In this document: positions 3,692 to 15,064 of the stretch, one piece after another | Layout of the letters: each line of letters starts with the position of its first letter | How positions within the stretch are numbered: the first letter of the stretch is position 1 | Assembly: GCA_016650045.1 (NCBI GenBank) | Contig: JAENWK010000005.1 | Coordinates: forward strand, 1 to 63,981 | Length of the DNA: 63,981 nt | Source of the DNA: Eubacteriaceae bacterium | GTDB taxonomy: Bacteria; Bacillota; Clostridia; Eubacteriales; Eubacteriaceae | Direction of reading: 5' to 3' | Position numbers and translations under genes: made by a program | Notes under the pieces: model-generated | The model's input: the letters and a program-made list of their open reading frames with translations, nothing else | Told to the model about the DNA's origin: nothing | Databases searched by the model: none

Positions 3692-4212
3692 TGATTATAT
3701 TATATGCATTTAATAATTATTTATTTGATTTAAATACTTATATAATAGCGATTTTAAAAGTCATTATATATTTAATGATATGCATTTAAATTTTAATAAA
3801 TTATCCTTTCACGGATGTTTTTATTGATAATTTAATGATTCTGTAGTTAAATAAAATGAATTTGATTAAGAAAAGGAAAGATAATGACCGATAATATAGA
3901 AAAAACTCAATTTTCCCAGCCTTGAAATACAGCTGAGGCATTAAAATACCGGTATCTGGAACTCCTAAAAAATACATGTTGACAGAAAAATGCACCCAAC
4001 ATCTGATATAATGAAGATGCAAACCAACAAATTCAGACAGGAAAGATGCATACCACTACGATAACCCAAAACAGCTTTCCGGATCTGTTCCCAGGCGTTC
4101 CAGGGTTTCAATTTTTCTTTCTTGGTAAGCATTCACATGATGCCTCCACATTCTATTTTAATTCAATAATCAAAGGAAATGGGTTCCTTTCACGGCAAAC
4201 AAAAAGCGACCC
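3692..4212. other. AT-rich intergenic region with a possible gene remnant
   Basis: No convincing gene. The plus-strand frame 4047-4217 (about 56 codons, starting MHTTTITQNSF) follows a weak AGGAAAG. The opposite strand at 4030-4150 reads NAYQERKIETLERLGTDPES, which looks protein-like but has no start. Either could be the trace of a lost gene. From 3692 to 3800 the sequence is very AT-rich without further structure. Confidence 0.35.
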
Positions 4213-4235
4213 TTAGTGCGAAAAATTCGCACTAA
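4213..4235 (-). terminator. Terminator of der
   Basis: TTAGTGCGAA and its exact complement around AAA. On the minus strand a GGGTCGCTTTTTG tail follows. It lies about 125 bases beyond the der stop. Confidence 0.7.
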
Positions 4236-4359
4236 AAGTCTCGTTACCATTCAGTTCTATAAAGCCAGGCGTTAGCCAGTCTGTTGACTTTATTGTTCAA
4301 CTACTCCCTTTTAACTTGTTTCGTTATAAACTAACCTCTCAATTTTGTCAATGCCTGAC

Positions 4360-9325: not shown

Positions 9326-9428
9326 AAATTAATAGCAAAAGTATTGTGAGCTTCGCTGTCTAGTTACATCAAAGCAAATTAAGGTGGTTTTATAAATTTT
9401 CCGATTACCTAAATAAAAATAAGAATAG

Positions 9429-9464
9429 GAGGCTGTTGCAAATTTTTGCAACAGCCTCTTTTTT
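9429..9464 (+). terminator. Strong terminator, overlapping the end of the P-ATPase gene
   Basis: A 14-bp stem GAGGCTGTTGCAAA / TTTGCAACAGCCTC with a 2-base loop and six T. It stops the DUF4364 transcript. Read on the other strand it also ends in a T-rich run after the P-ATPase stop. Confidence 0.9.
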
Positions 9465-12126
9465 ATGCTCTTTTTAGTTTTAGTTTTTTTCTAAGCAAAC
9501 ATCCGATAAACTTTGTAAACTCGACAATCACTAAAGGACTAAGTGAACCGATAATCACAACAAACCATTGGATTCCATTCATGGCAACCACATGAAAAAT
9601 GGGTTGAAATGCAGGAATTAATAGTACTGCTAATTGGAGGGCAAAGGATAATCCCAATGCCATCCATAAATATCGATTTGTGAAAAGCCCTGAATTAAAC
9701 AGGGATTTCTTTTGTGACCGAACATTAATGGCATGGGTCAACTGAGAAAATGCCAATACCGCAAAACACATGGTTCTTGCAACATCAATGCTATAATTCG
9801 CCAATCCAATTTGGAAAACGGTTAATGTGATGATCGCCAGTATAATCCCCTGGTACACAATACGCCCGCCCAGTCCATGGGCAAAGACACTTTCTTGGGG
9901 ATTTCGCGGTTTTTCGTTCATAATTCCAGGATCATTCTTTTCAACACCCAGGGCAAGGGCCGGCAAGCTATCTGTCACCAAATTAATCCATAGGATATGA
10001 ATGGGAAGCAGGGGTTGTATCCAACCAACCAGGGTTGCAATAAACAGAATGAGAATCTCTGCAATGTTACAGGATAAAAGAAAGTGAATGGCTTTTTTAA
10101 TATTCGCGTAAATTCCCCGTCCTTCTTCCACTGCTGACACTATGGTGGAAAAGTTATCATCTGTTAATATCATTTCTGCGGCTTCCTTGGAAACATCCGT
10201 ACCGGTGATTCCCATGGCGCAGCCAATATCCGCTTTTTTAAGCGCTGGTGCATCATTGACACCGTCACCGGTCATGGCAACCACCTGGCCCTTTTTCTGC
10301 CAGGCCTCCACGATGCGAACTTTATGTTCCGGAGCAACCCGGGCATAGACTGCAATATGCTCAATTTTATCGCTAAGCTCCTGATCACTGAGTCGTGCCA
10401 ACTCAATGCCAGTGAGAGCCAAACTCTTTTCTTCAAAAATATTTAATTCCCTGGCAATGGCGACCGCAGTATTCTTATGGTCGCCGGTGATCATAACCGT
10501 TTTGATTCCGGCTTTTTTACAAATCTGGATGGAATCTTTGACTTCTTCTCTTGGTGGATCAATCATACCGGTTAATCCGCAGAAAATAAGGTTATTTTCC
10601 AGTTCTTCAAAAGTAATTTCAGGCTTCACAGCGTATCTTTTGTAGGCATAGGCAATGACACGGTAAGCTTCATTGGAAAGAGCCTCATTATTGCCGTGAA
10701 TCTTTTCAATCATCACATCGGTTAAAGGGAAAATACCATCAGTTAAAAAAACATGTCCAACCCTTGAAATCAAAACGTCTGGGGCCCCTTTGGTAAAACT
10801 GTACCAGGATTCGCCGATTTTATGTACCGTGGTCATGAGCTTTCGACCAGAATCAAAGGGCAACTCACCAACCCTTGGAAATTTTTCTTCCTCGGAGACT
10901 TTATCATAATCCAAGGTTCCTGCAAAGGCCACCATGGAAACCTCGGTAGGATCTCCTATTTCCTGGCGTCCATCATTTCCATTAACAATGGAGGCGTCAT
11001 TACAAAGCAGTCCAATTTGTGCCACCATTTTTTCTGGACCGTTTAAGACTCGTTCTTTTAAGTCTTTGGTGTCCATAACCATGTCGTTAACATAAATCTT
11101 TTTAATGGTCATTTTATTTTGTGTTAAGGTGCCTGTTTTATCTGAACAAATAACCGAAGCACAGCCCAGGGTTTCAACGGCTGGCAGCTTTCTGATAATG
11201 GCATTCTTAGTCACAAGCTTTTGAACACCGATAGCCAAAACCACGGTCACCACTGCCGGTAAACCTTCGGGAATGGCCGCAACGGCCAGACTTACTGCCG
11301 TTAAAAATAATAATAAAGGATCTCCTCCGCGAATGAGTCCAATGATAAAAACCGCAGCACAGGCAATAATCGCACCGATGGCCAACACTTTTCCCAATTC
11401 TTCTAACCGCCTTTGAAGTGGGGTTTGCATGGTTTTTGTTCCCTGGATCATCCCTGCAATTTTACCGATTTCGGAGTTCATGCCGGTGGCTGTTACCACA
11501 TATTTTCCCCGACCGTAATTCACCAAACTGCTCATATAGACAGAGTTTGTCCGATCCCCCAAAGCTGTTTCCGGCTCTTCAATATTAGCAATTGATTTAT
11601 TCACCGGCATGGACTCCCCGGTTAATGAGGATTCCGTAATTTTTAGCGAGGCTTCCTCAATCAAACGACCATCCGCTGGCACAAAATCTCCGGCGTCTAA
11701 AAACACAACATCTCCGGGAACCAGGTCTTCTGATTTTATGACTTCACGCTGATTGTTTCGTAAAACCTTCGCTTCTGGAATTGTCAGGTTTTTCAAGGCT
11801 TCCATGGAATTTTCCGCCTTTTTTTCCTGTATGGCACCGATGAGGGCATTGACAATGACAATAATGAGAATAAGAACGGTATCGCTGATTTCTCCCAGGA
11901 ATCCTGAAATAACCGCTGCAACCAAAAGCACCAGAATGAGAAAATCTTTGAACTGGGAGATAACCATGATCCCAAAGGATCTTCTCTCACCTTCATCCAT
12001 TTTATTTTTCCCATGAATTTTTATTCTTTCATCTACCTGACTGGAATTTAATCCTGTCAGTGGGTTAAGTTCAAAAGCCTGTTCGATTTCTAATGGTGAA
12101 CTTAAAAAGCTTTCTTTTCTTTCCAA
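9463..12126 (-). CDS. P-type ATPase, Ca2+ (or Mn2+/Ca2+) exporter
   Basis: 887 residues, a P2A (SERCA/PMCA-like) pump. Motifs: TGES at 169-172, PEGLP at 286-290 in M4, CSDKTGTLT with phosphorylated Asp329, and a hinge with TGDGVNDAPALK. In M5 the pair N..E (CNIAEI) and in M6 N..TD (NLVTDSLPAL) match the SERCA calcium-site residues, so both metal sites look present. It pumps divalent cations out of the cytoplasm. Translation starts at TTG 12126, preceded by AAAGGAGG. A yybP-ykoY riboswitch upstream makes Mn2+ export or Mn2+-triggered Ca2+/Mn2+ efflux likely. Confidence 0.93.
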   Translation of the reverse strand: MERKESFLSSPLEIEQAFELNPLTGLNSSQVDERIKIHGKNKMDEGERRSFGIMVISQFKDFLILVLLVAAVISGFLGEISDTVLILIIVIVNALIGAIQEKKAENSMEALKNLTIPEAKVLRNNQREVIKSEDLVPGDVVFLDAGDFVPADGRLIEEASLKITESSLTGESMPVNKSIANIEEPETALGDRTNSVYMSSLVNYGRGKYVVTATGMNSEIGKIAGMIQGTKTMQTPLQRRLEELGKVLAIGAIIACAAVFIIGLIRGGDPLLLFLTAVSLAVAAIPEGLPAVVTVVLAIGVQKLVTKNAIIRKLPAVETLGCASVICSDKTGTLTQNKMTIKKIYVNDMVMDTKDLKERVLNGPEKMVAQIGLLCNDASIVNGNDGRQEIGDPTEVSMVAFAGTLDYDKVSEEEKFPRVGELPFDSGRKLMTTVHKIGESWYSFTKGAPDVLISRVGHVFLTDGIFPLTDVMIEKIHGNNEALSNEAYRVIAYAYKRYAVKPEITFEELENNLIFCGLTGMIDPPREEVKDSIQICKKAGIKTVMITGDHKNTAVAIARELNIFEEKSLALTGIELARLSDQELSDKIEHIAVYARVAPEHKVRIVEAWQKKGQVVAMTGDGVNDAPALKKADIGCAMGITGTDVSKEAAEMILTDDNFSTIVSAVEEGRGIYANIKKAIHFLLSCNIAEILILFIATLVGWIQPLLPIHILWINLVTDSLPALALGVEKNDPGIMNEKPRNPQESVFAHGLGGRIVYQGIILAIITLTVFQIGLANYSIDVARTMCFAVLAFSQLTHAINVRSQKKSLFNSGLFTNRYLWMALGLSFALQLAVLLIPAFQPIFHVVAMNGIQWFVVIIGSLSPLVIVEFTKFIGCLLRKKLKLKRA

Positions 12127-12275
12127 TTAATTTCCTCCTTTAAAAATAGATAATTGCCAAATTCATAAATATTTTTGTAACGTATAGGCGAACAGTCGTT
12201 AAACGGTACGACGTATAGTGGAAAAAATGTTTCATGTAAACAAATAGCAAAACTCACAGTACTTTCGCAATTACA

Positions 12276-12370
12276 AAAATATAAAGACCTTGTTATCCAA
12301 CCGGGGAAATTCTTCCCGTATTGACGACTGGATAAATCCTTGCGGCGAGTTACTCCCCTTCAGGGTGTAA
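12276..12370 (-). promoter_or_regulatory. yybP-ykoY family (Mn2+) riboswitch upstream of the P-ATPase
   Basis: On the minus strand the conserved pieces appear in order: GAAGGGGAGTAA (5' arm), a small stem, AGTCGTCAATACGGG, a hairpin, CCCCGGTTGGATAACAAGG, and the closing TCTTTA that pairs with the 5' arm. These match the aptamer known from Lactococcus yybP and Bacillus ykoY, which binds Mn2+ and switches on efflux genes. It lies about 150 bases before the ATPase start. The expression platform is not obvious. Confidence 0.85.
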
Positions 12371-12415
12371 ATTCTTTTAATGCATTTTAGTACAGTATTG
12401 GCATAGATGAAAGGC

Positions 12416-15064
12416 CTATTTTTGATAATAAGCCAATCGTTCCTTTACCTTATCCATTGTTTCAATATATATCCGTTGTTTTTCACGTTCAATTTCAACC
12501 ACTTTTTCCGGGGCTTTATCGATGAACCCTTTATTGAAAAGTTTTTGATTGAGACGTTCAATTTCTTTTTGCAGTTTGCTTTGTTCATTTGTCAGTCGCG
12601 CAATTTCTTTTTCTTTATCAACCAATTCATCTAAATTAATGAAGAGTTCAAGATCCTCAACCACAGCTGAAACAAAATTTTCTTCGATTTCTTTTTTTGT
12701 AATCAGCTTAATGGTGGAAACCGAAGCCAGCTTTTGAAAATACAAAAGTGATTCTTCCATTAAGTGGATTAATTTTTTGTTATCTGAAATAATAAAGAGC
12801 TGGGTTTTTTTGGAGTATGGCACATCCATTTCTGAGCGAATATTTCGAATACTTCGGATGACTTCCATTAAAAAAACAACCTGTTTTTCATCATCAGGAA
12901 AAACAAAGGACTCGTCATAATGGGGCCACTGGGCAATCATTATGTCTCCGGTAGTTCCTGGTAAATAACCGTTAATTTCTTCGGTGATAAATGGCGTGAA
13001 GGGGTGTAATAATCGAAGTATGGTATCTAAAACAATCCTTAGTGTATATTGGGCAGCGAGTTTGGTTGTTTCTTCTTCCCCATACAGTCTCGGTTTTACC
13101 AGTTCAATATACCAGTCACAATATTCATTCCAGGTAAAATCATAAATTTTCGATGCGGCAATCCCCAACTCATATTTACTCATATTATGGTTTACCTCCT
13201 GAACAATGGTGTTCATTCGGCTTAAAATCCATTTATCTGTATTTTCAAGATGGGCCAAAGTCTCATCCTTTTTATCCATAATATCATCGTCAAGGTTCAT
13301 CAAAACAAATCGGGCGGCATTCCATATTTTATTTAAAAAGTTTCGGCTGGATTCAACCTTTTCATCCTGCCAGCGGATGTCATTTCCTGCGGAATTGCCT
13401 GTAATAATGGTAAACCGCAGTGCATCGGCACTGTAGGTTTTAATGAGTTCCAGCGGATCAATGCCATTCCCCAAAGATTTGCTCATTTTTCGTCCCTGGG
13501 AATCTCTGACTAATCCATGGATATAAACATCTTTAAATGGCGGTTCACCCATTTCGTTAATGCCCATAAAAATCATTCGAGCAACCCAAAAGAAAATAAT
13601 ATCATAGCCTGTAACCAGTACTGTGGTCGGATAGAATTTTTTTAAATCTTCGGTATCCTCTGGCCAGCCCAAGGTTGAAAAGGGCCAAAGCGCTGAGCTG
13701 AACCAGGTATCTAAAACATCCTCTTCCTGAGTGAAATGAGATCCTCCACATTTTGGACAGGTTAGTGGCATTTCTTTTGCAACAATCATATCCCCACAAT
13801 CATCACAATAATAGGCTGGAATGCGATGTCCCCACCACAATTGACGTGAAATACACCAATCTCGAATGTTTTCCATCCAATTATAGTATATTTTACTGAA
13901 ACGATCCGGAATAAATTCAGTTTCCCGGTTTCTGACAGCTTCCAGTGCCGGTTTAGCCAGAGGTTCCATATTCACAAACCATTGCTCAGAGGTCATTGTT
14001 TCCACGGTGGTTGAACAGCGGTAACAGCCCCCAACATTGTGTTGATGTTCCTCGATTTTTTCAAGAAGACCCAGGTCGTCTAGATCTTTCACTACCGCTT
14101 TTCGGCATTCATAACGATCCAAGCCTTTATAGATTCCGGCCAGATCATTCATGGTTGCATCATCGTTGATGACGCGAATTTGTTCCAGGTTATGTCGAAG
14201 CCCTACTTCATAATCATTGGGATCATGGGCCGGAGTCATTTTAACAACCCCTGTTCCAAAATTAATATCCACATAGGTATCAGCCACAATGGGAATTTCT
14301 TTATTTAATAAAGGTAATATAACGGTTTTTCCAATGAGATGCTGATATCGTTCATCATCGGGATGGACAGCGACTCCAGAATCTCCCAGCATGGTTTCCG
14401 GGCGTGTGGTGGCCACGGTGAGAAATTCGTCGCTATTTGCCAGTGGGTACCTGATATGCCACAAATGTCCCTGTTCCTCGGCATATTCCACCTCAGCTTC
14501 GGATAAAGCGGTTTTACAGGTAGGACACCAGTTGATAATCCGGCTTCCCTTATAAATCAAGCCTTTGTTATAAAGGCTGACAAAGGCTTCATTCACGGCT
14601 TGACTGCAACCTTCATCCATGGTGAACCGTTCCCGGCTCCAGTCACAGGAGGCTCCCAGTTTTTTTAATTGATCGGTGATCCGTGTTTTATAGGTCAGTG
14701 CCCAATCCCAGGCCCGTTCCATATAGGCTTCCCGGCCAATGTCTTTTTTGGTTTTACCTTCTTCTTCCCGGAGCTTATCCACCACCTTAACCTCGGTGGC
14801 AATACTGGCATGATCCGTTCCCGGCAGCCATAGAGCAGCATAGCCATCCATGCGTTTATATCGGGTGAGAACATCCTGGAGGGTACCGTCAAAGGCATGA
14901 CCCATATGCAGTTGGCCGGTAATGTTTGGTGGCGGCATGACAATGGTAAAAGGCTTACCCTGGGGATGAACTTCGGGTTTAAAATACCCTTTTTCTTCCC
15001 AGTCTGCATAGGTTTTATTCTCAACTTCTTTTGGATTATAGATTTTCGACATTTCTTTTTTCAT
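12416..15064 (-). CDS. valS: Valyl-tRNA synthetase
   Basis: 882 residues, class I. The HIGH motif appears as HMGH in [15 protein letters not shown] (about residue 50), the editing domain (CP1) lies in the middle, KMSKS is present in [14 protein letters not shown], and a C-terminal coiled coil is rich in Lys/Glu. It charges tRNA-Val and clears mis-charged Thr. It starts 3 bases after the stop of the glycosyltransferase gene, so it is translationally coupled. There is no room for a T-box directly in front. Confidence 0.98.

Follow-up and report, generated by a model that had tools for sequence, protein, structure and literature searches.

The closest described systems are the yybP-ykoY riboswitches (RF00080) of X. 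oryzae and L. lactis. In X. oryzae, the aptamer comprises P1.1, P1.2, a sarcin-ricin-like L1 with an extruded A10 and an L3 whose invariable A48 contacts Mn2+ via N7; Mn2+ holds P1.1, the helix that competes with the terminator, and L1 and P1.1 carry the response (PMC6754395). The class also stands before P-type ATPases: Mn2+ riboswitches of this kind, described as complete and responsive, precede yoaB in L. lactis and mgtA in S. pneumoniae, the Lactococcus pump and Streptococcus mgtA being identified here after reviews. Martin and colleagues (2019) reportedly paired a Mn2+ riboswitch with a 'calcium' P-type pump. A further case comes from C. difficile, a member of the Clostridia. There, a review predicts one Mn2+ riboswitch, the CD2503 leader, before a cation-translocating P-type ATPase (PMC11477304); this leader, compared here by its description only, is predicted to be a normal member of the class, whereas the element reported below is a relic and, set beside yoaB and mgtA, a fragment.

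Here we describe this element in a window of 63,981 nucleotides, the whole stretch of DNA that was analysed, which belongs to a draft assembly of 217 contigs from an organism whose genus is probably Acetobacterium. An earlier note on the window had proposed that Mn2+ controls a pump that would be annotated as calcium-specific. Because the Mn2+ riboswitch class is known before P-type ATPases, this pairing is of an already published kind; it describes the window's past and is probably right for its relatives. Among the papers listed on riboswitch decay and on Acetobacterium with manganese, none reported a relic riboswitch before this pump. With a probability of roughly 85%, we read the element at 12294-12364 as a degraded Mn2+ riboswitch, in which a deletion reaching from P4 at least through the terminator's 5' strand would have left the pump constitutive and Mn2+-independent.

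Results

The yybP-ykoY-derived element lies on the minus strand (12294-12364) between valS (12416-15064, minus strand) and the pump gene (9463-12126, minus strand), in a leader of 289 nt; valS is also the upstream neighbour of the pump in many, though not all, of the relatives read. The ribosome-binding site of the pump, AAGGAGG, is found at 12134-12140 (minus strand). The gene itself encodes an intact P2A-type cation pump of 887 aa with a TTG start and DKTGT at residue 329, and the Pfam domains E1-E2_ATPase, Cation_ATPase_N and Cation_ATPase_C are complete and above cut-off, confirming the full-length P2A-type ATPase that had been read from the sequence. The description 'SERCA-like' is a loose one: the PMR1-type NCBIfam model TIGR01522 scores best (765.7, cut-off 798.3), ahead of the SERCA-type TIGR01116 (686.3, cut-off 703.4), and the pump stays below both cut-offs. 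Similarly, the residues of both calcium sites are present as far as the metal-ligand motifs of M4, M5 and M6 are concerned (VAAIPEGLP at 282, CNIAE at 686, WINLVTD at 713), but the place of SERCA E908 in M8 is presumably taken by Gln795. The closest solved structure is that of Listeria lmo0841 (LMCA1; 6zhf, 9euq), with 782 bits over residues 24-874, and in the alignment Glu690 and Gln795 of the window pump face Ala and Arg of LMCA1. The dN/dS ratio is 0.08 against the ortholog in genome G008 and 0.05, near saturation, against that in G017, with four of the six relatives saturated and yielding no value. The pump is under purifying selection and is kept while its switch is not.

The part of the leader nearest valS is well preserved. 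The 5' strand of the aptamer (12347-12362, minus strand) consists of P1.1 (12357-12362), the 5' half of L1, GGAGTA (12351-12356), and P1.2 (12347-12350); its bases are identical to the columns that never vary among complete relatives (GGGGAGTA.CT), and the covariance model R1 recognises it too. The 5' strand of L1, GGGGAGTA, including its A-minor adenosine, occupies 12351-12358. P3 and L3 are intact (12294-12334, minus strand), with P3.1 formed by 12326-12334 and 12294-12302 and P3.2 by 12313-12317 and 12304-12308, and the invariable, discriminating A of L3 is at 12322 (minus strand). Judged by comparing L3 with its description in PMC6754395, this A would be the equivalent of A48, carried by GTCGTCA. 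The window shares the 5' L1 GGGGAGTA, P3.1 and P3.2, the discriminator adenosine and the cation-pump context with the X. oryzae and L. lactis structures, and is collinear with its complete relatives from P1.1 to P3, after which the alignment diverges. P3 and L3 are predicted to fold normally in the window, and the same helices covary in 21 relatives; since the fold z-score of the window element (-1.42 and -1.66 in two computations) is unconvincing alone, the covariation in relatives was used instead.

R1 was built from 21 complete relatives with the window left out. It matches the window with 46.4 bits (E 2.9e-10) in a window search with filters off and with 41.3 bits (E 2.5e-7; 12280-12364) in a genome search with default filters. 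The 21 aligned elements support a structure of five helices (P1.1, P1.2, P3.1, P3.2 and P4): 91.0% of 577 cells are paired, slid versions giving 29-51%, 18 of the 28 pairs vary on both sides, and 500 shuffles never came up to it on any of the five measures used. The weakest helix is P4, with 61% paired in a poorly aligned region. The yybP-ykoY assignment at these coordinates thus stands, by a model trained without the window, although the element is incomplete; by descent it is a member of the family, a relic homologous to complete members in front of the orthologous gene. R1 is not fully sensitive: a default search of 20 loci gave 14 matches at E<1e-5 and none in L003, L004, L024, L025, L030 and L032, although L032 carries an element of a second subtype.

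This second subtype (GGGAGTAGTTG, GTCAACA, ACTGG, GAGACTTTTA) covaries too (11 aligned rows). The next gene, read at 20 of its 30 loci, encodes a P-type ATPase in eight cases, a GDT1-type exporter (AEMGDKTQ) in seven and a protein that we presume to be MntP-like in four, and was not found in one. P-type, MntP and MneA types are named as Mn2+ exporters in PMC9331361, so the presence of known exporter kinds behind the second subtype supports the ligand. The motif of the first kind also occurs in Thermoanaerobacter, Thermoanaerobacterium and Lysobacteraceae.

The RF00080 search, which the earlier note had proposed as a check that could refute the family assignment, returned no match at the gathering cut-off in the window and none at E<=10 over 12080-12480; in the whole genome, a single place on another contig appeared at E<=10, with 8.6 bits. 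Taken at face value, this result goes against the assignment, but RF00080 is a poor test here and was dropped as the deciding one, because complete relatives score poorly too. None of 40 family genomes exceeded the cut-off, and those listed among the eight matched at E<=0.001 are second-subtype elements. Of eight loci searched at E<=1, only L012 was reported (20.1 bits, cut-off 45), while L010, L014, L018, L020, L021 and L026, which also carry complete elements, were not. Elements were found by R1 at E<=1 in 23 of the 40 family genomes and by a further model, R2, at E<=0.05 in 33 of them, both counts including training genomes.

How common is the complete arrangement? The pump was searched in 61 genomes and leaders were read at 30 listed loci; seven of 19 genus genomes, the window's own included, have a pump match of at least 70% identity. 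In most of the family's other genera with leaders read, the order ahead of the pump is GGGGAGTAACTC, P2, P3 (with GTCGTCA or GTCGACA, and CCGG), P4 and GAGTAAGACCT, followed by a terminator whose 5' strand overlaps the 3' strand of P1.1 in complete relatives. Among relatives, the terminator gives a fold z-score of -5.7 in L006 and of -7.0 in L060. No element was found by eye or by R1 at L024 (genome G035), and too little upstream DNA was available to read L022. The window leader is 77% identical to the orthologous G017 leader over about 100 bp of DNA (E 1.3e-14). At L005 and L008, palindrome-rich repeats lie between the complete riboswitch and the pump, those of L008 as an array of GGCGAAGCCCGCGA... 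units.

When 84,980 species genomes were scanned for L3 together with the 5' motif, 48 loci emerged. The named species among the motif matches are Eubacterium callanderi, E. barkeri, E. aggregans and Pseudoramibacter porci, with callanderi and porci assigned to the Eubacteriaceae in NCBI taxonomy. R1, the sorting rule used here, which still detects the shortened window element, matches 34 of the 48 at E<=1: 33 at full length with 47-93 bits, some of them training rows, and one cut by a contig end; the remaining 14 have no match at this threshold. Completeness is therefore the norm, from which the window departs. The 33 full-length loci are exactly those with NAGACC. A count of 33 out of 33 complete was discarded as circular, the 3' motif being inside that sorting rule. 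Requiring CCGG or CTCGG after L3 selects 38 of the 48 loci, 33 with the 3' part, one cut and four without it (L052, L059, L066, L076), and requiring at least 7/8 pairing in P3 selects 26, 24 with the 3' part and two without (L066, L072). These five exceptions were taken as chance matches, since R1 does not match them at E<=1.

Compared with this background and with the X. oryzae and L. lactis structures, the window lacks the strands that close P1.1 and P1.2 on the 3' side, along with the L1 3' half, the greater part of P4 and the terminator; RF00080 gives it no score. The sequence GAGTAAGACC, which comprises the P1.2 3' strand, the L1 3' half and the start of the P1.1 3' strand, is absent from the 289-nt leader, where its best match (three mismatches in ten) is the 5' L1 itself; in three intact leaders tested as a control, it was found with no mismatch. 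The L1 3' half with P1.2 (GAGTNAGACC) is likewise not found in the window leader, the best match again being the 5' strand. Predicted folds of the window do not form the P1.1 switch helix, whose 3' strand is missing, and P4, a helix of the four-way junction, is reduced to CAAG on its 5' side. The earlier view that all conserved elements are recognisable fails on these absences: GAGTAAGACC, most of P4 and the terminator. Its remark that the platform has no plain terminator was borne out by a scan of 12100-12500, in which the leader has no intrinsic terminator and the single terminator-like site (12413-12434) lies at the end of valS; this missing terminator is part of the damage itself.

The break can be placed at a deletion scar (12275-12293, minus strand), where the P4 start CAAG runs into AAGGTCTTTATATTTTT, as judged against the leaders of G008, G013, G017, G006 and G014. 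By this comparison, AAGGTCTTTATATTTTT comes closest to the former terminator's 3' strand, and AACAAGGTCTTTATATTTTT in the window most resembles the beginning of P4 fused to that strand; the corresponding stretches are ATAAAGGTCTTATATG in G008 and ATAAAGGTCTTTTTATAT in G017. Alternatively, AAGGTCTTTAT could represent the 3' strand of P1.1, altered at two positions (AAGACCTTTAT), or it could have arrived with the repeat described below, as the copy L177 in the same genome is preceded by AAAGGTCTTATTT; this sequence precedes L177 only and none of the other compared copies (14 and four more). P4 and GAGT are missing whichever origin of the scar holds.

Beyond the scar lies an interspersed repeat of about 111 bp (12162-12272, minus strand), identified from alignments with copies in the same genome and in the genus. 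The genome holds 16 further copies or part copies at E<=3.4e-10 (L088-L097 and L177 on its contigs, genome G000), those matched being 78-89% identical to the window repeat, and the outer limits differ between aligned copies. The whole leader, used as a query, matches 16 of 19 genus genomes, many of the matches being to the repeat part and some to the aptamer part. Around 9330-9420 (plus strand), after a DUF4364 gene, a stretch resembles the start of the repeat by eye (AGCAAAAGTATTGTGAGCTTCGCTG); it is not among the repeat matches listed for the genome.

The closest relatives carry damage to this element as well, of other kinds. In a tree of 21 pump proteins, the window genome and G008 are sisters (100/100), and the pair falls into one clade with G016, G013 and G017 (99/99), while G006 and G014, which have complete aptamers (GAGTCAGACC), fall outside. 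The element is altered in five of the seven genus orthologs, in at least four ways, and all five belong to this one clade; the four damaged leaders in other genomes are L003, L004, L006 and L007. G008 has lost the 5' half and keeps the 3' strand of P3, AAGACC (with GAGT changed to AAAT) and a hairpin with a broken T-run. As the window keeps the 5' half and G008 an altered 3' half, their ancestor presumably had both, and two deletions would have occurred since. Little besides a hairpin is left in G016. G013 and G017 share changes in the core (GGGAAATA, GCC, CCAG) next to a strong, intact terminator (z -5.7 in G017); R1 scores them at 62.5 and 65.5 bits, and their changed core suggests that both switches may be inactive. 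A link between aptamer loss and the GDT1 exporter was considered and rejected: GDT1 is found in 13 of 19 genus genomes, present in G013, G016, G017 and G006 and absent from the window genome, G008 and G014, so that of the two genomes with complete aptamers G006 has it and G014 does not.

R2 matches two places in the genome, window positions 4230-4315 and positions 4092-4187 of contig C3, both part of its training; R1, trained on neither, gives them 35.2 and 22.9 bits. The first is an apparently complete second leader of the Mn2+ type (4230-4315, minus strand), downstream of der and with a terminator at 4208-4240 (z -5.7). Behind it, all that is left of a P-type ATPase is a remnant of 26 codons (4059-4136), which matches (17/26 identical) the start of a pump in G062, a genome of the E. 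callanderi genus, where that pump too has a leader of this kind; such pump starts were recognised by eye. Here the switch was kept and the pump lost, the mirror image of the element at 12294-12364. The C3 leader is complete, has a terminator (L143:1093-1187) and precedes an intact P2A-type pump with an open frame of 880 aa; pairs of an R2 leader and a pump like that on C3 recur in most genus genomes. A search of the genome for GDT1 proteins gave no match at E<=0.001, and Mn2+ induction is probably left to the P2A pump on C3.

Discussion

The ancestor of this locus would have carried a complete yybP-ykoY aptamer and a terminator before the pump. Without Mn2+, the strand GACCTTTAT... would have been drawn into the terminator; with Mn2+, docking of L1 and L3 would have kept it in P1.1, and transcription would have continued. 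In the window, a deletion presumably took out everything from P4 through the terminator's 5' strand, if not more, and the repeat now follows the scar; the exact ends of the deletion are reconstructed from aligned leaders, and the repeat may have arrived with it, before it or after it. The remnant is expected to fold P3 and L3, without forming P1.1 or the L1-L3 metal pocket in the known way, and with no terminator left to prevent, transcription of the intact pump would be constitutive and independent of Mn2+. In X. oryzae the response resides in L1 and P1.1, the parts built by the deleted strands, and this supports reading the element as a relic. Having lost the strand that would close P1.1, one half of the L1 loop that binds the metal, and the terminator, the leader probably no longer places this pump under Mn2+ control, contrary to the earlier proposal; for the orthologous pump of related genera, Mn2+ induction through the complete leaders is very likely.

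Could the shortened element still work as an Mn2+ switch, on a translational or otherwise unusual platform? It has kept an intact P3, an L3 with the discriminator A and the L1 5' half, and R1 still gives 41-46 bits. Moreover, PMC6754395 suggests that contact between L3 and the 5' half of P1.1/L1 may persist with the 3' strand occupied by a probe, so the window element may bind Mn2+ weakly. However, P1.1, the P1.2 3' strand, the L1 3' half and the terminator are missing, the same element carries different lesions in close relatives, and the scar and the ribosome-binding site lie about 150 nt apart, in a post-scar leader that folds no better than shuffles (z +1.04). A predicted fold pairs the ribosome-binding site with a T-run of the repeat, but sequestration of the site was rejected, as this region does not outdo shuffles. 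We consider a working switch improbable.

Still less probable is a rescue by the repeat, in which its GAGTT (12251-12255) would pair with AACTC (12347-12351), rebuild P1.2 and give a new, altered metal switch. With filters off, R1 indeed puts its 3' end at this GAGTT and thereby gains over the shorter default match (46.4 versus 41.3 bits), and none of the 14 other aligned repeat copies has GAGT at this place (13 GAGC, one GAAC), which makes the pairing strand particular to the window copy. Yet GAGT is one base from the common GAGC and could easily be chance, a stretch of seven nt in the model has to span 32 nt in this match, and the pairing restores neither the L1 3' half nor P1.1, nor a terminator. 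A broader version of this idea, to which we give equally little credence, sees in the half aptamer with its captured repeat a shortened P3/L1 metal sensor, neighbouring species having rebuilt or dropped control in other ways; if true, the clade would show a metal riboswitch remodelled piece by piece and not merely lost. That the organism has a complete riboswitch, lost through an assembly error, is about as doubtful: the draft state of the assembly and an interspersed repeat at the scar speak for it, but the repeat copies are only 78-89% identical, valS and the pump stand in the expected order and relatives show other lesions. Chance resemblance to yybP-ykoY can be dismissed despite the silence of RF00080 at E<=10, given the R1 E-value of 2.9e-10, the identity with the G017 leader and the same place before the same gene in relatives.

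Read as a relic that has released its pump, the locus illustrates that a recognisable front half of a riboswitch does not make a working switch: most of the recognisable bases lie in the 5' part and P3, and the switching strand lies in the 3' part. The search also exposed a gap in RF00080, as the current Rfam model leaves below its cut-off complete elements that are common in this family. Together, the genus leaders form a natural series for one pump in one place, with two complete elements, two damaged by point changes, two sisters cut from opposite ends and one reduced to a hairpin. A released pump beside pumps that are still controlled could help to show which 'calcium' P-type pump carries Mn2+.
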